Source of the DNA: an uncultured Pelagibacteraceae bacterium
GTDB lineage: Bacteria; Pseudomonadota; Alphaproteobacteria; Pelagibacterales; Pelagibacteraceae
DNA length: 64,000 bases
Direction of reading: 5' to 3'
Assembly (NCBI GenBank): GCA_902552755.1
Contig: CACDHV010000002.1
Span: forward strand, 25,427 to 89,426
Each line of letters begins with the position of its first letter. Position 1 is the stretch's first letter. The notes under the pieces were generated by a model. That model saw nothing but the letters and a program-made list of their open reading frames with translations, did not search any database and was not told the origin of the DNA. Both the position numbers and the translations under genes were made by a program. This document shows positions 4,501 through 34,259 of this stretch, one piece after another.

Positions 4501-4978
4501 TATTATAAATTTTTAAGATTAGCAGATGAAAGGCACATATAAAAAAAAGTGTTGCTCCAATAGCTACGCTACATTGAGGTATCCATATTAAAATTTCATC
4601 AGCACCTTCACTTCTTTCCTCAAACTCGTATGAGATTTTTAACATTTTGATAAAATAATATGACATATAACCTGCAAATATTGTTGTGACGACTAAGCTC
4701 CAAACTTCTAAAAATTTTTTTTTAAAACCTGTAGACTTTTCTAAAAATAATGTGATTCTTATATGACCTCCATTTACGAATGTATATGAAAGAGCAAAAA
4801 AAGATGAGGCAGCCATACAATACCCTGAGTATTCAGCTAACCCCCTTATGTAAAAACCGAAAATTCTAGATGCAATTCCAGTTAATATAAAAACTGCAAT
4901 AAGAATTAAAAAAACTGCAGCTATATATCCTGAATAATCATAAATATTATTTAATGATTTATTTAATTTCTGTAACAT
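4493..4978 (-). CDS. dctQ: TRAP transporter small permease (DctQ-like)
   Basis: 161 aa four-helix membrane protein, GHIRITLFLE motif, overlaps dctM. Confidence 0.85.
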   Translation of the reverse strand: MLQKLNKSLNNIYDYSGYIAAVFLILIAVFILTGIASRIFGFYIRGLAEYSGYCMAASSFFALSYTFVNGGHIRITLFLEKSTGFKKKFLEVWSLVVTTIFAGYMSYYFIKMLKISYEFEERSEGADEILIWIPQCSVAIGATLFFICAFHLLILKIYNND

Positions 4979-4980
4979 AA

Positions 4981-5010
4981 AAAAGGCTGTTTTTTTAAAC
5001 AGCCTTTTTT
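4981..5010 (-). terminator. Hairpin terminator/attenuator between dctP and dctQ
   Basis: Perfect 12-bp inverted repeat AAAAGGCTGTTT-TTTT-AAACAGCCTTTT with flanking A/T runs. Confidence 0.8.
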
Positions 5011-5022
5011 ATTATATTTTTT

Positions 5023-5994
5023 TTATTTGTATGCGGCAAGTACGCTAGCACCTGTTTTGCCAGCTTTTTTCTTCCATTCTTTTGCCATTTTTTTTCCAAC
5101 TTTTTGGAAATGTTTTTCTAAATCAGCATTTACTTTGCCTACTACCATTCCTGCAGCGGCTAGAGCTTTTTTATCTTCTATATTTCCAACTCTAGAAAGC
5201 ATCCAGCCTTTTTCTTCTGCAGCAGTAGCTTCTCTTTTAATTAGCATTTGAGTATCTGCATCTAACTTATTCCAAGATCCTCTATGCGCAACAACCATAT
5301 TTTTTGGGAACCAAGCAGCGATGTCATAGAAATATTTAACACCGTTCTCCCATATTTTGCTATTTTTACCAGTTGTTGGCGATGTAATCATACTTTCGAC
5401 TGCCCCTGTTGAAAATGCTTGACTGATTTCAGCCGCCTCAATTTTAGTTGGAGCCATACCTGTAAGCTCTGCAATTCTAATTGTTGCAGAATTATAAGCT
5501 CTAAATTTTAAACCTTCTAGATCTGAAACACTATTGATTTCATTTTTGCTATATAGTCCTTGTGCAGGCCATGGCACAGCATATAAAAATACTAATCCTT
5601 TTTGGTTTAAACTTTCAATGATTGCTGGCTTTGAAGCTTGATAAAGTTTCATAGCATCGTCATATGAAGTTGCTAAAAAAGGTTGTGAGTCAATTTCAAG
5701 AATAGGGTCAACTTTTCCTAATGCTGACATAAATCTTTCACCCATCTGTGCTTGACCAGTTCTTACCGCTCTAAAGATTTCTCCACCTTTAAATAATGAT
5801 CCACCAGGATGTGTAACTATTGTAAGTTTTCCTCCACTTTTCTCTGAAACATTTTTAGCAAATTCTGCTGCATTTGCTGAGTGAAAGTTGCTCGCACCAT
5901 AAGCTAAAGCCATATCCCACTTTTCAGAAGCATTTACATTTGCTATTAACAAGACAGAAAATAAAATAGAAAACAAAGTTTTTAAAATTTTCAT
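5023..5994 (-). CDS. dctP: TRAP transporter substrate-binding protein (DctP family)
   Basis: Signal peptide; VYxVPWPAQGLYS..., LEGLKFRAYNSATIRI...; strong AAGGAGG ribosome-binding site just upstream of start. Confidence 0.9.
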   Translation of the reverse strand: MKILKTLFSILFSVLLIANVNASEKWDMALAYGASNFHSANAAEFAKNVSEKSGGKLTIVTHPGGSLFKGGEIFRAVRTGQAQMGERFMSALGKVDPILEIDSQPFLATSYDDAMKLYQASKPAIIESLNQKGLVFLYAVPWPAQGLYSKNEINSVSDLEGLKFRAYNSATIRIAELTGMAPTKIEAAEISQAFSTGAVESMITSPTTGKNSKIWENGVKYFYDIAAWFPKNMVVAHRGSWNKLDADTQMLIKREATAAEEKGWMLSRVGNIEDKKALAAAGMVVGKVNADLEKHFQKVGKKMAKEWKKKAGKTGASVLAAYK

Positions 5995-22546: not shown

Positions 22547-22942
22547 ATGAAGCTAACTATACCTTACTATTTACATAAAGCTGGCGCGGGTTTTCCGTCC
22601 CCTGCCACAGACTATATTGAGGAAGATATTGATTTAAATGTTCATTTAATCAAAAACGTTCCGGCAACTTTCATCATAAGAGTCCAGGGGAAATCAATGG
22701 TGGATGTGGGAATTAATGATGGCGATCTATTAGTTGTTGATAAGAGTTTAACACCAAAAAATTTCTCAACAGTTATTGCAAATGTTCATGATGAACTAGT
22801 TGTTAAAAGTTTAGTTCAAGAAAGAGATAAAAAATTTTTAACATCAGGTTCTAAAGAATTTACAGATCGAATTTTAATCAATGAAGATGAAGATATATTT
22901 ATTTGGGGAGTTGTAACTTATGTCATCCATTCAGTATACTAA
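22547..22942 (+). CDS. umuD: UmuD-like translesion polymerase V accessory protein (LexA-like autoprotease)
   Basis: [14 protein letters not shown] cleavage-site region (Ala-Gly), [20 protein letters not shown] with catalytic Ser, DELVVKSL with catalytic Lys. Confidence 0.9.
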
Positions 22943-24197
22943 AAAAATAGCACTTATTGATTGTAACTCTTTTTATGTTTCTTGCGAAAGATTATTTAAT
23001 CCTAAAATAAGAAAAAAACCTGTTGTAGTTTTATCTAATAATGATGGTTGTATAATTTCAAGATCAACAGAAGCAAAGGCTTTAGGCATTAAAATGGGAG
23101 AGCCTTACTTCAAGGCAAAAGATATTATTATTAAAAATAAAGTTAATGTTTTTTCATCTAATTATTCTTTGTATGGAGATTTATCTAGAAGAGTAATGAG
23201 AACATTAAAAAGATTTAACTCTGCCATCGAAGTATATTCTATAGATGAAGCATTTCTAGATTTGTCAAATTTTTTAGATGATGAAGTTGAAAAGGTTGGA
23301 AGAGAAATCAGAGAGACAGTTTTAAAGTGGACAGGTATTCCAACTAGTATTGGTATTGCTAAAACAAAAACTTTAAGTAAAGTTGCAAATCATATTGCAA
23401 AGAAAAAAAAATCAGGTGTAACAAGTTTGATAGGAATTGAAAATATTGATCCAATTTTAGAAAAAGTTGAAATTAATGATGTATGGGGTGTGGGAAGACA
23501 GTTAACAAAATTTTATCATAAAAATGGAATTTATAATGCAAAGCAACTAAAGAACAAATCAAATACATGGATAAAGAAAAACTCTAATGTTTTGGGTTCA
23601 AGAACTGCAATGGAGTTAAGAGGAGTCCCTTGCATTGATTTAGAGACAACGCAAACAAAAAGAAAAAGCTGTGTTGTATCTCGTTCTTTTGGTCAAAGAA
23701 TTGAAAAATACCAAGAACTAAAAGAAGCAGTTGCAAATTATTGTTTGAACGCATCTGAAAAAATTAGATCTGAATCTTTGATTGCAAAGTCAATTACTGT
23801 TTTTGTTAGAACAAGTCCTTTTCAAAGTAGATTTGGATATTATTCAAACTCAAAGACCATAGATTTTGCAATTTCAACAAATAATAGTATTGAAATAGTT
23901 AAAACTGCTTTGGTTGCTTTAGACTCTATCTTTAAAAACGGTTATCGTTATCAAAAAGCAGGTGTAATGCTGACCGGTTTATCTAATGAAGATGGTAGTA
24001 AGAACCTATTTTCTTGTGAAAAAGATGAGAAAATAAAGGGTTTAATGAGGTCTATTGATAATACGAACTATCGATATGGAAGATCCACATTAAGTCTTGC
24101 AAGTGCTGGAGTTCAAAAAAGATGGAACATGAGAAGAGAGCATTCATCTAAAATAGATACTGCAGATTTTTATTTACTACCAACGATCAGAACTTAG
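22920..24197 (+). CDS. umuC: UmuC-like Y-family DNA polymerase
   Basis: [76 protein letters not shown]; overlaps umuD. Confidence 0.95.
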
Positions 24198-24227: not shown

Positions 24228-25412
24228 TCAATTGTTTGCTACAGCATTATAAATGCAACCTATTCCTATTCCAATTTCTAAACCGTTTTTCAAACTTGAG
24301 CTATCTACTAATACTTTCTTAAGCCACTTTGAAATTTCGTGATCAGGATATCTTACTTGAAAAATATGAAACCATCCGGATGCATACCCTTGCCTATTTA
24401 TTTTTCTGAATACCTGATTACCATTGGATGGTTGAGAATTGTATTTTTTTTTTGCCCAAGGTTCTATTGACATAGGGTCCAGATAGCCTTCATGAAATAT
24501 CTGAACAGCTTTTAATAATTTAGTTTCCATATTTTTAGGCAGATCTAAATTTGCTGCATAAGCCATTTCAATAACTAAAAATAACTCAGCTAAAGATTGA
24601 TTGTGATAGTGAAGAGCTCTATTTCCACGAGTTGTTCTATCTTTAAAACTTCCATCTTTTAAAAGTTCTTTATTCATTCCTTTTAATACTTTTTTTATGT
24701 TATTTTTGTATTTTTTATGTTGCGAATGTTTAATAAATACATTTGGAAATGACCAACCACCTTGGTGACCATAAAAATCATTAATTGATTGATTGGGTAT
24801 TCTTTTATAAAAACTTTTAAACCATTTATTTATAATTTTATGTCGATTATCCTCAATTTTAAATCTCTTAAAATAAAAATCATAAATATAATTTAAATTC
24901 AGTATTGTAAATAATGTGCTAGCATCATCAAATTTAATTGCTGGATCTTGTCCATCTTTATCTTTCCACACACTTTTGCAATCTTTTGATTTGAGATTTT
25001 TTTGTTTATCACTAGAATAACATGGTTTAGTTTTAGTAAGTGCATCATTCGAAGCCCATATAAATAATTTATCAAAAAGTCTTTCTTTTAATATTTGATC
25101 ATCTGTGGCTGACATAAAAATAGTTGCTTTACTAAATTGTTGGAAAACATCCTCAAAATGTCCACCTTCAACCTCATCAATGTTATCCATTCGAGAATTA
25201 AACCCTTTAATTCTTTGAGGTAAATCTTTATCAATTATATCAAAACGTGTCTTATATTTATTAAATTCACAATATTTAATTTTATGTTCTTTACTCAAAG
25301 AATTATAGGTTTGTAAAATACTGTTTGGAACAAAAACATTCTCACTTAACTGATAGGCATAAGAAGAAGAATAAAAAAAATAAACAATTAAGAAAACTAA
25401 AATTTTTCTCAT
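24228..25412 (-). CDS. Secreted alginate-lyase-like (alpha/alpha toroid) protein
   Basis: Signal peptide; NDFYGHQGGWSFPNVFIK and RGNRALHYHNQSLAELFLVIEMA resemble alginate lyase family motifs; last gene of the glycan locus. Confidence 0.55.
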   Translation of the reverse strand: MRKILVFLIVYFFYSSSYAYQLSENVFVPNSILQTYNSLSKEHKIKYCEFNKYKTRFDIIDKDLPQRIKGFNSRMDNIDEVEGGHFEDVFQQFSKATIFMSATDDQILKERLFDKLFIWASNDALTKTKPCYSSDKQKNLKSKDCKSVWKDKDGQDPAIKFDDASTLFTILNLNYIYDFYFKRFKIEDNRHKIINKWFKSFYKRIPNQSINDFYGHQGGWSFPNVFIKHSQHKKYKNNIKKVLKGMNKELLKDGSFKDRTTRGNRALHYHNQSLAELFLVIEMAYAANLDLPKNMETKLLKAVQIFHEGYLDPMSIEPWAKKKYNSQPSNGNQVFRKINRQGYASGWFHIFQVRYPDHEISKWLKKVLVDSSSLKNGLEIGIGIGCIYNAVANN

Positions 25413-25421
25413 ATCTTAAAT

Positions 25422-26204
25422 TTATATTTTACTAAATGTAGATTTTTTTTTGTTCTTTAATGATAAATTATTGTAATTATAAGTTGTAGTACCTGTATCT
25501 CCAATTCGGTAAATTCCTATTTTAATATAAGGTTTATTGGGACCATAAGGCCCATCTGTTTTTTTTGAAGATATGGGTACATCATAATGCTGTAAAATAA
25601 ATTCATCATCCAAGTAATATTTAACAGATAAATATTTTGATTTTTTTTGATAATCAATTTCTGCCCTAAATTTATAAATTTTGCCTACTTCTAAAGTTAT
25701 AAAATTGTGCATTTTACAATTATCTTCAGAACATTCTCCTTTTGGAAACTTGTGAATTATACTCCACTTACCATTTAATCCAATCCATGAAGGTGGTGCA
25801 CCACTATTTCTACCATCATGAATTTGAAAAATAGTAGTCCTTTTTGATGGAGCACCTTCTATTAATAAATCTGTTTCAAATATTGAGTGACCAATTGGTA
25901 GTTTATGAGTAACTTCTTGTCTTCCTGAGTAAGGATATCCTCCTGAAGACTTTTTATCATTTTTACATTTACCAATATCACCTTTATCTAACTTAAATGT
26001 TATATTTTTAACTTTAAACTCATTTTTGTTGTAACTTTTTTTTGACTTTCCATTCACAACAAGCGCTTCTTTATCAACTATACCACACGAAACTTTCCAT
26101 TTATTTTTATTTTTCCATTCTCCAGCATTTGCAGGAACATTAATAGTAATTACAATAATCAAAAATAACAAAAAACTTTTCATATATTTTTTAAAATTTA
26201 CCAA
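25422..26204 (-). CDS. Secreted jelly-roll polysaccharide lyase-like protein (heparin lyase I/PL20-like fold)
   Basis: Signal peptide; SGRQEVTHKLPIGHSIFETDLLIEG, TTIFQIHDGR, KIGIYRIGDTGTTTYNYNNLSL. Confidence 0.6.
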   Translation of the reverse strand: MVNFKKYMKSFLLFLIIVITINVPANAGEWKNKNKWKVSCGIVDKEALVVNGKSKKSYNKNEFKVKNITFKLDKGDIGKCKNDKKSSGGYPYSGRQEVTHKLPIGHSIFETDLLIEGAPSKRTTIFQIHDGRNSGAPPSWIGLNGKWSIIHKFPKGECSEDNCKMHNFITLEVGKIYKFRAEIDYQKKSKYLSVKYYLDDEFILQHYDVPISSKKTDGPYGPNKPYIKIGIYRIGDTGTTTYNYNNLSLKNKKKSTFSKI

Positions 26205-27372
26205 CTACACTTTCATAGTGCACATAGCATGCATTATTCTCTTGGTCAGAAAAATTAGTGAATTTTTCCATACACTTACTTAAACCCTCTTTAGCTGCTC
26301 CAGCTTTGCTATATCCTATATACTTTAAAAGATATTTATCGTTATTTTTATTTTTAATTATTGCTAAAAAATTACCTTTCATTTCCTCAAATTTTATTTC
26401 TTCAGGAACAACTTTAGAAGTAATTCTTTTAATTTTTTTTGCGCCCTCTGGCATATATTCTGAGTCGCGAATTTTATATTTATATTTCGATCTTGCTATT
26501 TTATCTTTTGATTTATAATCACATTTTTCTTTATCCATGATTTTTTTGCAATCTTTGCTTATAATATATTCTTTAATGGATAAAGTTGAAGGTTCAGTTA
26601 TATTTGGATCTTGATTAGCATCCCAATATCTATAAAGACCAATTTTAAAAGCAATACCTCCTGTTTTGTCTAAAATCATGTTTGGTCCGTAAAACTCAAT
26701 TACCCTTTCATCATTTAACCACATTATAAATTCTCCATCATCTTTTTTAGATGGTTTTATTTTAAACAGTGCAGTGCTGTATTCTTTTTTAAATGCAGTT
26801 AAACTCCCTAAATCAAATTTATATAATTTTTGTTTAACTCTGTTTGCTACAGGGTCAATATCTGTCCAATAAACTTCTTCTATTTGTTTAAAAAAAAATT
26901 CCATTCTATTAGGAAGATCATCTTCGTCGGTAGTGTACCTAATTTGCATCGAAGGATAAATTATCTCTCCTCCTTTTTTAGTTCCAACTACTTGCCAAAT
27001 ATTAGCACTATGATTTTGTCCTGCATTTAATTTAAAAGTATATTTTAAGTAAACTTCCTTACCAAGTTTATGATAATTTTTCCTTTTAGTAACAAATTCC
27101 CATCTCTGAGCTTGATCATCTGAGAGATCCCAGTCCTCAGGATGCCCCTTCATACTATAATCAAGGGTAATCTCTACAGCTTCCTCATTTTCATTGTAAT
27201 TAAGTATTTGTTTATGTTTTGTCAAAGAGTCATATGCAAGACTCATTTTTTTCTTTGCTTCTTCACCAAGAATTTCTTTTTTAAATTTTTTCAAAGCATC
27301 AACTTTTTCTGCAAAAACATTTGTGTTTAAGAAAAATATTAAGGAAAATATGATTATTAAGAGTTTTTTCAT
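26191..27372 (-). CDS. Secreted polysaccharide lyase-like protein with extra Cys-containing C-terminal domain
   Basis: Signal peptide; DDGEFIMWLNDERVIEFYGPN and FKIGLYRYW; paralogue of 28396-29358; extra ~90 aa C-terminus (SKAGAAKEGLSKCMEKF...NACYVHYES). Confidence 0.55.
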   Translation of the reverse strand: MKKLLIIIFSLIFFLNTNVFAEKVDALKKFKKEILGEEAKKKMSLAYDSLTKHKQILNYNENEEAVEITLDYSMKGHPEDWDLSDDQAQRWEFVTKRKNYHKLGKEVYLKYTFKLNAGQNHSANIWQVVGTKKGGEIIYPSMQIRYTTDEDDLPNRMEFFFKQIEEVYWTDIDPVANRVKQKLYKFDLGSLTAFKKEYSTALFKIKPSKKDDGEFIMWLNDERVIEFYGPNMILDKTGGIAFKIGLYRYWDANQDPNITEPSTLSIKEYIISKDCKKIMDKEKCDYKSKDKIARSKYKYKIRDSEYMPEGAKKIKRITSKVVPEEIKFEEMKGNFLAIIKNKNNDKYLLKYIGYSKAGAAKEGLSKCMEKFTNFSDQENNACYVHYESVVGKF

Positions 27373-27381
27373 TTGTATATT

Positions 27382-28392
27382 TTAGTTAAGTTTTAAATTT
27401 TTTGTTGAACCATCTTTATAAGTAAACTCTACCTCTTTTTTTGAAATAGATTTTATTGATGTAAAACCATCATATTCACTTATAAATTCGTTTAATTTTT
27501 TTCTATTTTTCTTTGACATTTTTTTACCTGGAGCGTTTACACCTACGTCAATTATTAATTCAGCTCCATTTAAAAAAGCATTCACATAAGCTTTTATCGG
27601 AGGACCACAGGTCATAGCTTCAGTTAACCAAATTGGTTTATCAATATCAACACTTTTTAATAAATCTGCAAATTCATCTACCCATAGCTCTTTATCGCAC
27701 TGTCCATCTGGACCGCTTATATGGTGAATGTTTGCAATATCAAAGTGATCCTTAATTTTTGGTAAAGCTGATTTCCAGTATTTTTTATTTTCTGGAAACA
27801 TTCCTGCAGCACCAGCCATAACGATAACTGCATCCGGTTGCTGTTCTTTAATTACTTTTGAAGAAAAATTAAAGATTTCAACAAAATCTTCCTCGCTTCC
27901 TTTAAAAAACATATCAAACTCAGGTTCATTCATCACATCCCAATATATAATTGGTTTTGTTAATCCAGGCATGTCATTTGAACCATCTCCATCATAACGG
28001 TCAACTAATTTTATAAGAAAAGTTTTATAATCTTCCATTGAACAAGGTTTGCTCAAATATTTTGTAAAACGTTTTCCAAATGGACTTCTAGCTTTTTTTC
28101 TTTTACAAGATTTCTGATCCCAATTTGTATGAGGCCAGATGGTTGCTAAAATTGTTTGATTGTGATCTTGAGCATATAAGACGTATTTATCTACATCTTC
28201 CCAGAAAAATTTACCCTTCTCACTTTCTATGTGACTCCAAACAAAAGGTCCTGGATGAGGTCTAACCCACTGTCCATCTTTACCACGCATTTTTTTGTCT
28301 CTCATTTCAGTTAATTCACCAAATCTAGATTGAGAATTTGCAAAATTAGTTAAAAATAAAAGTGATAACAAAATCGTTAATAATTTTTTCAT
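27382..28392 (-). CDS. Secreted TIM-barrel glycoside hydrolase (clan GH-A-like)
   Basis: Signal peptide; WVRPHPGPFVWSHIESEKGKFFWEDVDKYV, IIYWDVMNEPEF (acid/base Glu), KPIWLTEAMTCG (nucleophile Glu). Confidence 0.7.
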   Translation of the reverse strand: MKKLLTILLSLLFLTNFANSQSRFGELTEMRDKKMRGKDGQWVRPHPGPFVWSHIESEKGKFFWEDVDKYVLYAQDHNQTILATIWPHTNWDQKSCKRKKARSPFGKRFTKYLSKPCSMEDYKTFLIKLVDRYDGDGSNDMPGLTKPIIYWDVMNEPEFDMFFKGSEEDFVEIFNFSSKVIKEQQPDAVIVMAGAAGMFPENKKYWKSALPKIKDHFDIANIHHISGPDGQCDKELWVDEFADLLKSVDIDKPIWLTEAMTCGPPIKAYVNAFLNGAELIIDVGVNAPGKKMSKKNRKKLNEFISEYDGFTSIKSISKKEVEFTYKDGSTKNLKLN

Positions 28393-28395
28393 TAA

Positions 28396-29358
28396 TTAAT
28401 TTATTTTGATTTCTGGTAAAGGCTTTGTCCATTTAATTGATTTAGAAATTTTTTTTCCGTAGGTAGGCATCCTATTACTACTTTTTCTATATCTTACATA
28501 GGAAACAGACTCTTTGTTTTCTGATTGGTAGGAACATTTATCTTGATCTAAAATTTCCTCACATTTATCACTATAACCAAATTCTTTTACCGTTAAAGAT
28601 TGTATTGGAGTTTCATTTAAAAGCACATCTTTTAGCCATCTATAAAATCCCCATTTAAATGTATATCCGTCACCTATCGTAAAATTTGGGCCATATACCT
28701 CAAAAACCTTCTTATCATCCACCCAGCCTATTATTTCTCCATTATCATCTTTTGATGCTAAAATTTTAAAACTAACAGTTCTGTAATTTTTAAATTGATC
28801 TACAGTTCCTAAAGGAAATTTATATGAAACCTTATCAAAATTAGAATTTTCGGGATCGCCTTTTAAATAAAAAACCTCTTTGGTAAAGCTTATTTGGTGA
28901 AAAACTGAATTTCCTCTAAATTGTAATTTCATCCAAGGTAAAAGTCTTGAGTTACCTTTATTGGCAATAACTTGAAAAAAACTTCCACCCACTGCAGGGT
29001 GTGTAGGAAAATCGTTCAACTTAAATGTATAGTTTATATATACAGGCCTCTTAAATTTCCTTGGTTTTTTCTTATTTGCAGTTTCCCATCTTTGATTTCT
29101 TTCACCAGTCCTTTCCCAGTCATTTTTGTGCCCTTTAAACTTTGTATCAAGTGTGATTTTAATTGCTTTCCCATCTGCATCTTCAAAAATAGATAGAGCT
29201 TTTTTTTTTGAAATCGATCTAGTATCATCTTTCATTTCTGATTTTGCTTTACCGATCAAAATTTCTTTTTTTAAAAACTTATATGGATTTTCAGAAGCGT
29301 GGGAATATGTTGAGACTAAGACAAAAGATAATAAAAATAAAAATAATTTTTTCTTCAT
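28396..29358 (-). CDS. Secreted polysaccharide lyase-like protein, paralogue of 26191-27372
   Basis: Signal peptide; DNGEIIGWVDDKKVFEVYGPNF, FKWGFYRW, SDKCEEILDQDKCSYQS parallels SKDCKKIMDKEKCDYKS. Confidence 0.55.
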   Translation of the reverse strand: MKKKLFLFLLSFVLVSTYSHASENPYKFLKKEILIGKAKSEMKDDTRSISKKKALSIFEDADGKAIKITLDTKFKGHKNDWERTGERNQRWETANKKKPRKFKRPVYINYTFKLNDFPTHPAVGGSFFQVIANKGNSRLLPWMKLQFRGNSVFHQISFTKEVFYLKGDPENSNFDKVSYKFPLGTVDQFKNYRTVSFKILASKDDNGEIIGWVDDKKVFEVYGPNFTIGDGYTFKWGFYRWLKDVLLNETPIQSLTVKEFGYSDKCEEILDQDKCSYQSENKESVSYVRYRKSSNRMPTYGKKISKSIKWTKPLPEIKIN

Positions 29359-30512
29359 ACTTTAAATAATTTGTCAGATAAATTTTGAAGTTTATCTCCC
29401 CAAAAAACTTCTTTCTGAATTCTTTTAAATTCAATGTCAAAAACGCTGGACATTGCTGAAGCATATACAGATCTAGCATCAATTGTTGAATTTAAGTCTC
29501 TTCCTTCAAATAACTCTTTTTTCTTTAGTCCTGGCCAATCAGTATAAACTTGCGATTTTTTTAATAAACCACCTGCCATAAATATTGCTGAACCATAGCC
29601 ATGTTCAGTGCCTCTTCCACCATTTTGTTCAATTGTTCTGCCAAATTCGGTAAGAGTTAAGACTAAAGTATTTTCGATTTCTGATCCTAGACCTTTCTCT
29701 AAACTTTTAAAAATTGAGTCCATTTCAATTAAACTATCTGAATGAGAACCATTCACACCTCCCTGAGCAGCATGAGTATCAAAACCATCAACTTCAAAAA
29801 CAGCAACTCTTGGACCATTTATTTTTTTTAATTCTAAACCTGCTTTATAGGCTAAAGACGAATTTTTACGAGACATCGAAGTACCACCACTACTCATCAT
29901 AGATCTATTAGCAATTATTTCCATCATATTAGCTAAATCATGCTCAGATTTATCTGCATAAACAGATTTTAAGAGTTGCAAAAGTTCTGTTCTTGGAAGT
30001 CTTTTTTTTGAAGGATAAAAATTATCATTACTTGGAATACCTCTTAATAGTAAAGGCATTGGTAAAGACAATGCAAGACCATCACCTTTTAGCTCTCCTA
30101 ATTTCATTCCTCTACCTAACCAACCAGTTTTTATTGCATAAGGTATGTGACCTCCAGTTTCCATTAAATTTTGACCATCAAAATGTGATCTTTTTGTATA
30201 TGGAATATTGGTTGCATGAACTATTGCTCCCAAATTATTTTGCCATAAATTATAAAAATTTTTTAGTTTAGGGTGAAGAGCAAAATCAGAATTTAATTTA
30301 ATTGTTTCATCTAAAATCAAATCTTTTCTTCTTTTTTCAAAGTTCCTATCACCTATTATCGGTACAGCACATAAACCATCCATTCCGCCTCTTAACATTA
30401 TAATTACAAGATTTTTTTTCTTTGTAGTATTTGCTAAAACAGGAAAATTAAAACCTGCTAAAAATAAAGTTGTTGCCGATCCTTTTAAAAAGTTTCTTCT
30501 TGATATTTTCAT
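29355..30512 (-). CDS. DUF1501 protein, Tat-type signal (alkaline phosphatase/sulfatase-like superfamily)
   Basis: MKISRRNFLKGSATTLFLAGF twin-arginine signal; MLRGGMDGL, SHFDGQNLMETG, LTEFGRTIEQNGGRGTEHGYGSAIFMAGG. Confidence 0.88.
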   Translation of the reverse strand: MKISRRNFLKGSATTLFLAGFNFPVLANTTKKKNLVIIMLRGGMDGLCAVPIIGDRNFEKRRKDLILDETIKLNSDFALHPKLKNFYNLWQNNLGAIVHATNIPYTKRSHFDGQNLMETGGHIPYAIKTGWLGRGMKLGELKGDGLALSLPMPLLLRGIPSNDNFYPSKKRLPRTELLQLLKSVYADKSEHDLANMMEIIANRSMMSSGGTSMSRKNSSLAYKAGLELKKINGPRVAVFEVDGFDTHAAQGGVNGSHSDSLIEMDSIFKSLEKGLGSEIENTLVLTLTEFGRTIEQNGGRGTEHGYGSAIFMAGGLLKKSQVYTDWPGLKKKELFEGRDLNSTIDARSVYASAMSSVFDIEFKRIQKEVFWGDKLQNLSDKLFKV

Positions 30513-31936
30513 GATTTAAGAGTCTCCGGTAAGTTAAACAACATCACATGTCTATTGGAAAGGTCAACTTGCTGATTTATTGTTTTAAGAATTTCACTTG
30601 AATTATCATAATTTTTTTCAACCATCTCCTCATAAAATTCATTTGTCTGCGATTTTCTATTTTTTTTGTAATATGCTTCTTTAGCATAAACGAGTCTTCT
30701 AATTAATAATTCAGGTGACATCCAATCATCAGACACATCTGACCATCCATTAGGTTGTTTTGCTAAATATGGATGATGACCAAGTTCTCTTAATAAATAT
30801 TCTAATGATCTTTGCTCATGAGTTGGTTTTAGACCTAAGGTATATAAATCCATCAATTTTGGTGTTGGTACTAATTCCACATCAGACATTTTACTCATTA
30901 TTAAAAGCCAATTCTCTGGATTTTGAAATTTATTGTATTTTTCAGAATAATTGAAAGCAACTTCTACTGCCGCTTTATGAACATCTGGTAAAAAACCATC
31001 TGATTTTTCCCAGGCTCTAATAATTGGTTCCATCATTTCTTTTGTTGGATTGTCGGTTATAAAATACCTGCAAAGTTTCATTGCAATAAATTCTCTACAA
31101 GATGGATGATTTACAAGATCAGTGATTACGGCTGATAAACTTTTTCTTCCTGATTTATATTTTTTACCTAAAATTCTTTTAGTACCTGGTTGATGATATT
31201 CACCATTGAAATGAACATCTCCAGTTTCTAATCTTTTTTTTCCCCAGTTAGGTCTCCATCCACTCATTACATATGCCATTTGAATAACATCTTCTTGAGT
31301 GTAGCCACAATCAGGTGAAACAGTGTGAAGCTCTAACAATTCCCTTGCGTGGTTTTCATTTACACCAACTTTTCTTCCCTTCTCTTTAGCCCATTGTGCT
31401 TCTTGGCTTTTAGGTCCGACATTATCATTATTATCTAAATGATGTATCATAGTCCAAGCTACTGTTGCTTCTTGAACCATTTTTTCAAAGGTTTGATTCA
31501 TATTGGCTCTAATAATCTCTCTTTGATATGCACCAGTAGTGTATTGAGCTAAAAAATCTTTTTCACTGATTGCAAAATGGTTTCCCCAGAAATACCATAG
31601 CTTAGCTAAAACAGGAGTTTCACTTTTTAAAGCTTCAGAATGTCTTATACATAATTCAAGATTCCACCAAAATTTTTGGCCTGTTAGATGTCTTAACTTA
31701 TTTTTTTCTCTTTTATATCCATCTTTATCGTTTTTAAATTTTTTTCTTAGAACCTTTCTATCTCCATAAACGTAATCTCGATAATAATTTCTAAGTTCTT
31801 TCTCTGGTAAAATTTTTCCCTTCCAGGAAAATTCTGGAATTTTATTTAATTGACTTGTTGCCCAATCTAATGGGTCTGATGGAACTTTATCTTTAGGTCC
31901 TAGTCCAAATGCAACCTTACGATAAAAATTTTTCAT
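30509..31936 (-). CDS. DUF1800 protein
   Basis: LWYFWGNHFAIS, NENHARELLELHTVSPDCGYTQEDVIQMAYVMSGW, overlaps DUF1501 gene by 4 nt. Confidence 0.88.
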   Translation of the reverse strand: MKNFYRKVAFGLGPKDKVPSDPLDWATSQLNKIPEFSWKGKILPEKELRNYYRDYVYGDRKVLRKKFKNDKDGYKREKNKLRHLTGQKFWWNLELCIRHSEALKSETPVLAKLWYFWGNHFAISEKDFLAQYTTGAYQREIIRANMNQTFEKMVQEATVAWTMIHHLDNNDNVGPKSQEAQWAKEKGRKVGVNENHARELLELHTVSPDCGYTQEDVIQMAYVMSGWRPNWGKKRLETGDVHFNGEYHQPGTKRILGKKYKSGRKSLSAVITDLVNHPSCREFIAMKLCRYFITDNPTKEMMEPIIRAWEKSDGFLPDVHKAAVEVAFNYSEKYNKFQNPENWLLIMSKMSDVELVPTPKLMDLYTLGLKPTHEQRSLEYLLRELGHHPYLAKQPNGWSDVSDDWMSPELLIRRLVYAKEAYYKKNRKSQTNEFYEEMVEKNYDNSSEILKTINQQVDLSNRHVMLFNLPETLKS

Positions 31937-31954: not shown

Positions 31955-32824
31955 TTATTTCAAAGTGTCAATATCTGAAATGTTTGTTAAAGAATTATTA
32001 AATTCGCTAATGTTTTCTCTTCCTGAGACTTTTAAAATAACCAGACCAAATATAATAATTAAAGCTAGAGGTATAGCTGTAATTACACTGATATACTCAG
32101 CAATTATTATTAAATAAATTGCGTAAAAAGCTATTGATCTAAAAATTACACCTGTTTTAAAGACAGCGATAATGGATAAAGAGTGCATTATTAAATTGAA
32201 GAAACTCATTTTCGAAGGCCCAAAATATCTTGAGCCTCTTATTGATGGAGACTTAATCAAATTAATTTCAGTTTTTGCCAAAGAACCTGAAAAACTACTC
32301 CAAGTTGATTTCTCTTCGATTAGCTTTTTTACAGTTTTCTTTGTAAGGCAAGTATAGTTTCCAAATTTAATAAATTTTCCAGTGAAGGTTAAAGTAATAA
32401 TTTTGTGTAAAAAATAACAAATTTTAAAAATAAAACTTTCTGATCTTTTAACTCTCTCTCCAACAATTGTTGTATTTGGATTATCTTTAATCTTTTCTAC
32501 AAAGTTTTTTATTTCTTCTGGTCTATCTTCTCCATCTCCATCCATTGGTATTATATAATCAAAACTCTCGTTTTCTGAGATATGTTTTAGTCCTGCAGCT
32601 ATACATCTTGCATGGCCTCTATTTTTTCTCATATTTATTAATTTTAGAGATTTAATATTATTTAAATTTTTAGTTTCTAATATTTTTTCTTCTGTTGAAG
32701 CATCATTCACTACAATTACTGAAAATGAAGAGTTAAGGTCGGAAATATTAATATCAATTTCTTCAATTAATTTTGATACAGATTTAAAATCATTAAAAAC
32801 TGGAATTAATATTATAATATTCAT
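31955..32824 (-). CDS. GT2-family glycosyltransferase (polyprenyl-phosphate sugar synthase-like) with C-terminal membrane helices
   Basis: IIILIPVFNDFKSVSKLIEEI, VVNDASTEE, NRGHARCIAAGL, IIPMDGDGEDRPEEI. Confidence 0.85.
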   Translation of the reverse strand: MNIIILIPVFNDFKSVSKLIEEIDINISDLNSSFSVIVVNDASTEEKILETKNLNNIKSLKLINMRKNRGHARCIAAGLKHISENESFDYIIPMDGDGEDRPEEIKNFVEKIKDNPNTTIVGERVKRSESFIFKICYFLHKIITLTFTGKFIKFGNYTCLTKKTVKKLIEEKSTWSSFSGSLAKTEINLIKSPSIRGSRYFGPSKMSFFNLIMHSLSIIAVFKTGVIFRSIAFYAIYLIIIAEYISVITAIPLALIIIFGLVILKVSGRENISEFNNSLTNISDIDTLK

Positions 32825-32949
32825 TAGCTGACTGAACCTATTAGTCTAAATAATGAAGCAAAAAAACCGTAACCTGAAAGTTCAATCAGAACAATAATTC
32901 CAATGATGAACAAAAGTCTTTTATTTTTTTGGTTTAACTGAAATTTCAT
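32824..32949 (-). CDS. 41-aa single-pass membrane protein (not in ORF track)
   Basis: Minus-strand ATG 32949 to TAA 32824: MKFQLNQKNKRLLFIIGIIVLIELSGYGFFASLFRLIGSVS. Overlaps the stop of the upstream GT (ATGA) and the start of the downstream GT2 (TAATG). Confidence 0.6.
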   Translation of the reverse strand: MKFQLNQKNKRLLFIIGIIVLIELSGYGFFASLFRLIGSVS

Positions 32950-34259
32950 TTATATTTTAAACATTTCATATCTTTGTTGCACAAATAAACTTCACTTGAG
33001 TTATAAATCCATTTTGGTCTTTCAGGAAGATGGTAAGATATATTTCCAGCGATCCACTCATTACCCTTAATATATTCCATTTTTCCAAGGTCCTTGCCCT
33101 CTGTTTCATAAAAAACTTTAGCCTGCTTAGCTAAATATTTGCCATTAAAATCAGTTCTTTTGTCAGTCTTTGTAATTGAAACATAGGAGTATAAAATTGG
33201 AGATATAATAAATAAAATCAAAAATATTGAAGCAAAGACTTTCATTTTTTCCAAATTAATTTGAGATTTAAAAACATAAACAAATAGTAAACCAAAACTT
33301 ATATAGAATGGTGTCATCCACATAGTTCTGATTTTTACACCCATCGTAAATGATGTTAGAAAGATAAAGAAAATTGGAATTAAATTGATTGATAACAAGA
33401 ACAATAAATTATCATCATTTAAATTAATATTTACTTTAAACTTTTTAACTAAAATAAGAACCATTAATAAAAACGGTAATAATATTCCGATTTGCTTACC
33501 TAAAAATATTATAGGATGTTTAATATGGTTAAAAATACTTGCTTCTTCTGATCCAGTTCTAAGAAGTCCATAAGTAATGGTTATATAATCATTCTCGATT
33601 AGCCAAATGATATGCGGCAATAAAATTATTATAAAGGGTACGAATGAAACTAAACACTTAAAATTTAATTTTTTTGTATAAATCATGTAAATTAAAAGCA
33701 CACCTATTGCTAAACCTAGATAGATAAATAAATATTTTGATAAAAAACCTAGTCCAGCAAATAGGCCTAATAACAACCAATCTAATATTTTATTATTCTT
33801 AATGCCTTTCCATAAATAAAAGACTGAGATAGACCAAAAAGGTATTAAGCAAACATTTACATTAAATTCGGGTGTAGTGAAGTTATAAAAATATATTCCC
33901 TCTAATAACAAAACCGATAGCAAACAATATATTTTACTTTCAAAAAAATCTTCAGCTAACTTAAAAACTACAAAAAATGAAATTATAATACAAATTTGAC
34001 TTAGCAAATAATAAGCCCAATCTTGGGGTCCAAAAATTTTGTAAAATATTTCAGGCAGGAAAGCGCTCATTGGAGGATGTTTATTAAATCCCCAGTCTAA
34101 GTTACTGCCCCAAGCTAAAGCTTCGATAGTATCAAGTGGCAAGTTATAGTTTGTTAAAGTTGGAACAACTGTCCAAATTAATAAGTGGGATGTAATAAAA
34201 ATATAAAATAAATTACTAATATTCTTTTTATAAATGGCCATTTTTATTAATTTATACAA
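32946..34259 (-). CDS. ArnT/PMT-type (GT39/GT83-like) membrane glycosyltransferase
   Basis: Polytopic; DTIEALAWGSNLDWGFNKHPPMSAFLPEIFYKIFG typical of the first periplasmic loop of PMT_2 family. Confidence 0.8.
   Translation of the reverse strand: MYKLIKMAIYKKNISNLFYIFITSHLLIWTVVPTLTNYNLPLDTIEALAWGSNLDWGFNKHPPMSAFLPEIFYKIFGPQDWAYYLLSQICIIISFFVVFKLAEDFFESKIYCLLSVLLLEGIYFYNFTTPEFNVNVCLIPFWSISVFYLWKGIKNNKILDWLLLGLFAGLGFLSKYLFIYLGLAIGVLLIYMIYTKKLNFKCLVSFVPFIIILLPHIIWLIENDYITITYGLLRTGSEEASIFNHIKHPIIFLGKQIGILLPFLLMVLILVKKFKVNINLNDDNLLFLLSINLIPIFFIFLTSFTMGVKIRTMWMTPFYISFGLLFVYVFKSQINLEKMKVFASIFLILFIISPILYSYVSITKTDKRTDFNGKYLAKQAKVFYETEGKDLGKMEYIKGNEWIAGNISYHLPERPKWIYNSSEVYLCNKDMKCLKYK

Follow-up and report, generated by a model that had tools for sequence, protein, structure and literature searches.

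The genes for a DUF1800 and a DUF1501 protein lie side by side on the minus strand of a 64,000-nucleotide stretch of DNA (the window), flanked by glycosyltransferase genes on one side and by genes for putative glycan-cleaving enzymes and umuD/umuC on the other. The window's genome is SAR11-like, AT-rich and about 1.0-1.3 Mb in size, and a proteorhodopsin operon is found nearby. The features of the locus, in window coordinates, are as follows.

22547-24197, plus strand: umuD/umuC, conserved flank across the variable site (open reading frames and locus comparison)
24228-25412, minus strand: PF05426 alginate-lyase-like protein, variable cargo (Pfam)
25422-26204, minus strand: PF14099 lyase-like protein with a TTG start, variable cargo (Pfam)
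26191-27372, minus strand: PF14099 lyase-like protein, variable cargo (Pfam)
27382-28392, minus strand: GH10-like protein, variable cargo (PF00331, E = 0.01, below the Pfam cut-off)
28396-29358, minus strand: PF14099 polysaccharide-lyase-like protein, 320 aa, variable cargo, with a 4-nt overlap with DUF1501 (Pfam, E = 7e-11)
29355-30512, minus strand: DUF1501 protein, 385 aa (Pfam PF07394, E = 3.6e-22)
30429-30512, minus strand: Tat signal peptide of DUF1501, about residues 1-28, with the motif SRRNFLKG (from sequence; RR invariant in the family)
30509-30512, minus strand: 4-nt ATGA overlap of the DUF1800 stop and the DUF1501 start, recurring in 42 of 43 SAR11 pairs
30509-31936, minus strand: DUF1800 protein, 475 aa, leaderless (Pfam PF08811, E = 3.2e-71)
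31955-32824, minus strand: GT2 glycosyltransferase, conserved flank, also in pair-less genomes (Pfam and locus comparison)
32946-34259, minus strand: PMT_2 glycosyltransferase, conserved flank, in 226 of the 297 genomes searched in the order

Both proteins belong to their Pfam families, with scores of 241.2 bits for DUF1800 against a curated PF08811 cut-off of 26.1 and 79.5 bits for DUF1501 against a PF07394 cut-off of 27, the latter match being confined to residues 229-346 in the C-terminal third of the protein. NCBIfam contains no match for either member of the pair, and PDB sequence searches with either protein returned nothing meaningful. The preliminary description of this DNA had reported 4-nt overlaps between DUF1800 and DUF1501 and between DUF1501 and the next lyase, and the ORF coordinates confirm both, the second being likewise an ATGA overlap. 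It had also stated that the two genes commonly co-occur, and we find that DUF1800 and DUF1501 are an obligate pair: they are adjacent in 41/41 SAR11 loci, in 60/60 loci from a phylum sample and in 79/80 GTDB loci, the 80th of which runs off its contig. Recurrence of the overlap within SAR11 and of the adjacency across these three sets shows that neither is due to chance. Genomes carry both genes or neither (12 with, 6 without), and PF08811 is present in 106 of 399 phylum-sampled Pseudomonadota genomes. Divergence of DUF1800 and DUF1501 within SAR11 is tightly correlated (r = 0.96, vs 0.64-0.68 for either protein against the adjacent GT2 gene), and the pair changes state at least nine times on a tree of 71 loci, which together indicate that it behaves as an independent unit. 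Among 60 loci there was no natural fusion of DUF1800 to DUF1501. Phage carriage was considered on the basis of a lone short, unannotated faecal "Bacteriophage sp." record with 24% identity, which we found unconvincing.

Predicted folds and candidate active-site residues

The proposed placement of DUF1501 in the alkaline phosphatase (AP)/sulfatase-like superfamily is supported by structure prediction. A Foldseek search of the PDB with the AF2 model (pLDDT 86.6, pTM 0.83) gave top matches that all belong to the AP superfamily (best E = 2.7e-6, probability 1.00), including sulfatases, EptC, YejM and NPP, with E values of about 1e-6 to 1e-4 and low TM scores of about 0.4. The top PDB profile matches are alkaline phosphatases, though non-significant, and hhalign sets the sequence TEFG of DUF1501 against the AP metal motif TADH. 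The candidate catalytic set consists of D45, S109, D245, H247, E289 and H304. Across 177 DUF1501 sequences D45, S109, H110, D245, H247, F290 and H304 are invariant (with one gapped row at D45) and E289 is nearly so (174/177), and by position the invariant residues resemble the nucleophile and the majority of the metal ligands of AP. At the metal-2 site, the AP histidine is replaced by the invariant F290 and the aspartate by glutamate, so the chemistry may be altered or lost.

The formylglycine motif C/S-x-P/A-x-R is absent from DUF1501, which has an invariant R-S-H-F at the nucleophile instead, while a true sulfatase within the SAR11 cargo reads CGPSR at this motif. Alignment of a sulfatase profile to DUF1501 with hhalign gave a probability of 0.6 and no usable alignment. 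Because the motif is lacking, sulfatase activity is unlikely, and judged by these residues a phosphatase/phosphodiesterase-type enzyme is more plausible. The active-site comparison suggested in the preliminary description shows the AP fold with conserved candidate metal ligands but neither the formylglycine motif nor the metal-2 histidine, and of the suggested removal of sulfate or phosphate groups it is the phosphatase-type activity that fits better.

DUF1800 is predicted to be almost entirely helical (AF2 model with pLDDT 87.3 and pTM 0.89). No match to PDB folds was found at E ≤ 0.001, and the predicted fold is thus one for which no solved relative was detected. Its conserved core is marked by the motifs FW.NHF and NEN..RE..ELHT.

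Genomic neighbours within and outside SAR11

DUF1800 was found in 49 of the 297 genomes of the order, all from the window's genus. The site has the layout PMT2-GT2-(DUF1800-DUF1501)-cargo-umuC/umuD in 41 SAR11 loci, GT2 being now and then separated from the pair by further genes. The gene after the pair differs among SAR11 genomes, the lyase that follows DUF1501 in the window being a local feature, and the cargo at pair-bearing sites may consist of PF14099/PF05426 lyases, GH10-like proteins, urease genes, IMPDH, an amidohydrolase or a sulfatase, or be missing altogether. The sulfatase (PF00884) is a 527-aa protein, and six pair-bearing loci have it among their cargo; two 500-aa cargo proteins were also considered for this assignment and ruled out. 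The same site is empty in 11 of 40 pair-less genomes and filled with other genes in the rest, among them genes for lyases, PEP carboxylase and PhyH. The island that houses the SAR11 pair is hypervariable, and the cargo found there with it, glycan-cleaving or otherwise, is changeable.

The contiguous, overlapping genes of the window led to the proposal that the pair desulfates or dephosphorylates the glycan on which the neighbouring lyases and glycoside hydrolase act, within a polysaccharide-degradation locus. The AP/sulfatase-like fold of DUF1501 is in keeping with this, as are the presence of the PF00884 sulfatase among the cargo and a published link of the gene pair to horizontally transferred chitin synthases, described in passages of PMC5122149. 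Furthermore, GH10-like genes (7/32 vs 0/40) and one PF14099 lyase group (6/32 vs 0/40) were seen exclusively at pair-bearing sites, a restriction that may reflect shared ancestry, and the load of PL/GH genes is higher where the pair is present (1.8 vs 0.7 at pair-less sites). Urease genes are also enriched alongside the pair, however (10/32 vs 2/40), which argues that the pair-bearing islands are simply larger. The preliminary description had held that co-occurrence with CAZymes no greater than random would speak against its proposal, and at the level of presence or absence there is no excess: any PL/GH is found at 19/32 sites with the pair and 22/40 without it (p = 0.81), several pair-bearing sites having none at all. 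Nor is there an association on the tree, where PL/GH genes accompany the pair in 0.4 of nine independent contrasts and oppose it in 3.9. The association with CAZymes beyond chance that marks a polysaccharide-utilisation locus is thus not seen for the pair. Added to the missing formylglycine motif of DUF1501, these results leave the functional tie to the adjacent glycan enzymes weakly supported; we do not favour it and consider it unlikely.

A different set of neighbours recurs in the 139 pair loci from other Pseudomonadota used for comparison. An ECF sigma factor lies upstream of the pair in 34 of these loci (co-oriented in 27), a short protein containing a hydrophobic segment in 25, and a PF13801 "Metal_resist" ("heavy-metal sensor") protein in 25, and the complete trio of ECF sigma factor, short protein and PF13801 protein is found in 24 of the 139, from both alpha- and betaproteobacteria. 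In Ensifer adhaerens the trio neighbours the pair but is oppositely oriented, so these genes have stayed associated through rearrangement. The other recurrent neighbours tested included LysR, ABC transporters, MFS, aldo-keto reductase, integrase and similar families; there was no CAZyme among the recurrent families tested in the 139 loci, a set in which chitin synthases were not systematically covered, and this too argues against a role of the pair in glycan degradation. The trio might instead point to an envelope or metal stress unit, with the pair as the output of the ECF sigma/PF13801 sensor system acting on envelope phospho-groups or metal handling, and with SAR11 keeping the pair without its regulator. 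This is a possibility we hold only tentatively, given that the trio accompanies a mere fraction of loci, that no operon gene follows the pair in 115/131 loci, that the SAR11 site showed neither a sigma factor nor a PF13801 gene, and that "heavy-metal" is a family name rather than a demonstration of a metal response. Such a reading concerns the role of the pair and is compatible with the export route considered below.

Export signals and a proposed route across the membrane

The DUF1501 protein begins MKISRRNFLKGSATTLFLAGFNF, and its N-terminus (MKISRRNFLKGSATTLFLAGFNFPVLAN) is a Tat-type signal as called by the hydropathy and motif rules applied here to all signals; the PF10518 TAT_signal profile matches it with E = 0.0013, below the cut-off. 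The arginine pair is invariant across 177 aligned sequences save one gapped row, and TatC is encoded in the window's own genome. DUF1800 starts straight at its domain (MKNFYRKVAFGLG...), in an ORF that has no upstream in-frame start. Both observations bear out the preliminary description, which had noted the SRRNFLKG twin-arginine signal of DUF1501 and the lack of an obvious signal peptide on DUF1800. DUF1800 is leaderless in 43/43 SAR11 copies, in 35/60 from the unselected phylum sample, and in 77/81 GTDB copies, a set biased by having been gathered with a leaderless first query. A missed start codon was considered as the cause and ruled out: every SAR11 locus has an ORF that opens directly at the domain, and elsewhere the start sites annotated in RefSeq are consistent with this, three independent plasmid records showing a leaderless DUF1800 with a Tat-tagged DUF1501.

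A tree of 148 DUF1800 sequences has a well-supported split between a mostly signal-bearing clade (23/28, of Sec or lipoprotein type) and a leaderless clade (114/120), and in all six exceptions within the leaderless clade the in-frame start lies merely 9-13 codons ahead of the domain motif. Placement of the SAR11 sequences in this tree is uncertain because their branch is long. The residues N193, E194, N195, R198 and E199, together with Y212, are nearly always retained in both clades, and proteins that share this core can be expected to act on the same side of the membrane. DUF1501 is still Tat-tagged where DUF1800 bears its own signal, which indicates that transport of DUF1800 was not the only reason for the Tat signal to evolve. 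The simplest reading of these sequences is that DUF1800 is extracytoplasmic in both clades, the leaderless form probably leaving the cell with DUF1501, which alone has the export tag, and riding on it via Tat.

The chances seem to us about even that DUF1800 and DUF1501 form an obligate two-protein unit that works outside the cytoplasm and is exported by Tat, the signal sitting on DUF1501 and DUF1800 travelling as a leaderless hitchhiker. DUF1501 would fold in the cytoplasm and bind leaderless DUF1800, and its Tat signal would then take both proteins across the inner membrane. Once exported, DUF1501 is predicted to act as an AP-superfamily metallo-hydrolase, more probably phosphatase/phosphodiesterase-like than sulfatase, while the all-helical DUF1800, with its own conserved polar centre (NEN..RE..ELHT), may be its partner or a second enzyme. 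The cell envelope is the likely place of action. We infer the complex, the co-export, the catalysis and the envelope substrate from sequence.

Among redox enzymes, Tat substrates with a dedicated chaperone are known. By that precedent leaderless DUF1800, encoded by an overlapping gene and an obligate partner of a Tat substrate, could stay cytoplasmic and serve DUF1501 as its own chaperone. The sister clade of DUF1800 has Sec or lipoprotein signals on the same invariant core, however, which would be needless for a cytoplasmic chaperone, and both the size of DUF1800 (430-500 aa) and its enzyme-like polar conservation further make this role improbable. If the two proteins are instead exported together, they might make up a new and widespread type of two-subunit periplasmic phosphohydrolase that leaves by Tat, in which a subunit with the AP fold and an altered metal site (TEFG for TADH) carries a helical subunit of a fold unseen in the PDB, and which an ECF-sigma/PF13801 envelope sensor would control in many Pseudomonadota. 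We offer this broader proposal as a speculative one, with the balance against it.

An obligate unit with a clade-wide leaderless half, an invariably Tat-tagged half and recurrent ECF-sigma and sensor genes turns two DUFs into a testable export-and-enzyme hypothesis, for which Burkholderia and Rhizobium offer culturable hosts. The tempting assignment of the pair to the SAR11 glycan enzymes, which appear to be changeable neighbours and not obligate teammates, is corrected as well.

Relation to known systems

The open literature searched offered no function for DUF1800 or DUF1501, no account of the leaderless/signal split or of the ECF-PF13801 link, and no description of the PMT2-GT2/umuC-umuD site with its recurrent invariant pair; subscription literature was outside the scope of the search. 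Both COGs are expanded and uncharacterised in SAR202 genomes (PMC6946804). In the passages of Goncalves et al. (2016, PMC5122149) considered here, a DUF1800-DUF1501 operon is described beside transferred chitin synthases, the Tat motif on DUF1501 is noted and an unspecified functional link is proposed. That operon resembles the one in SAR11 in its gene pair, the DUF1501 Tat motif and a GT2 neighbour, its function being unknown there as well. Its GT2, however, is the transferred chitin synthase, whereas the SAR11 GT2 is a core gene present without the pair too, and the leaderless DUF1800, the clade split and the ECF/PF13801 mates go unmentioned in those passages. The SAR11 locus is also like other SAR11 hypervariable genomic sites in having strain-variable cargo flanked by conserved genes.

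DUF1501 is like the AP superfamily (alkaline phosphatase, NPP and S1 sulfatases) in its predicted fold, and its invariant D45, S109, D245, H247 and H304 are candidate equivalents of residues there, but it differs in reading TEFG at the TADH metal-2 motif, in lacking the formylglycine motif and in having no significant sequence match to a solved member. Hitchhiker export by Tat is established for E. coli PaoABC (PMC4273604), and the FAD glucose dehydrogenase with its hitchhiker protein is likewise a Tat hitchhiker complex (PMC6719666). Like these systems, DUF1800 and DUF1501 are co-encoded and co-inherited partners of which one is Tat-tagged and the other signal-free, an arrangement present in 43/43 SAR11 pairs and 114/120 members of the leaderless clade. 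PaoABC and the FAD glucose dehydrogenase are redox enzymes whose export is experimentally proven, whereas the pair described here would combine an AP-type protein with an all-helical partner, as suggested by sequence alone.

Hypervariable insertion site in SAR11 genomes

The SAR11 insertion site flanked by PMT2-GT2 and umuC-umuD (24228-31936 in the window; compared loci L032-L111) is hypervariable and is adjoined by the proteorhodopsin operon. Across these loci it is either empty or carries varying contents, including lyases, a GH10-like gene, urease genes, IMPDH, a sulfatase, PEP carboxylase and PhyH. The sulfatase, of family PF00884, is found as cargo in six genomes that bear the DUF1800-DUF1501 pair (L036, L049, L050, L053, L055 and L058) and is of the true formylglycine type, with the motif CGPSR. 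At the same site, the pair-less SAR11 genome G124 has six singleton genes (L084:11911-17196), with products of 851 aa, 387 aa and smaller.

Copy number and motif variation

The pair is duplicated in tandem in two SAR11 genomes, G131 (L033) and G279 (L036), the latter with an internal TAA in one DUF1800 copy. Another locus (L236:5986-8847) has two tandem DUF1800 genes followed by one DUF1501. Within the FW.NHF motif, DUF1800 position 120 is Phe in 21 of the 43 SAR11 sequences, which may reflect an alignment shift, and His in nearly all relatives.

Matches and neighbors beyond SAR11

A DUF1800-like stretch (23.5% identity) is present at 4921-5742 of MT837425.1, a phage record from faeces ("Bacteriophage sp.") that is short, carries no annotation and is possibly bacterial DNA. 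In some other Pseudomonadota, the pair is adjoined by a conserved trio of an ECF sigma factor, a short hypothetical protein and a PF13801 protein (L216:4030-5719, L199:4432-5898 and L261:7390-8822); the short protein contains a hydrophobic stretch and is a possible anti-sigma factor.
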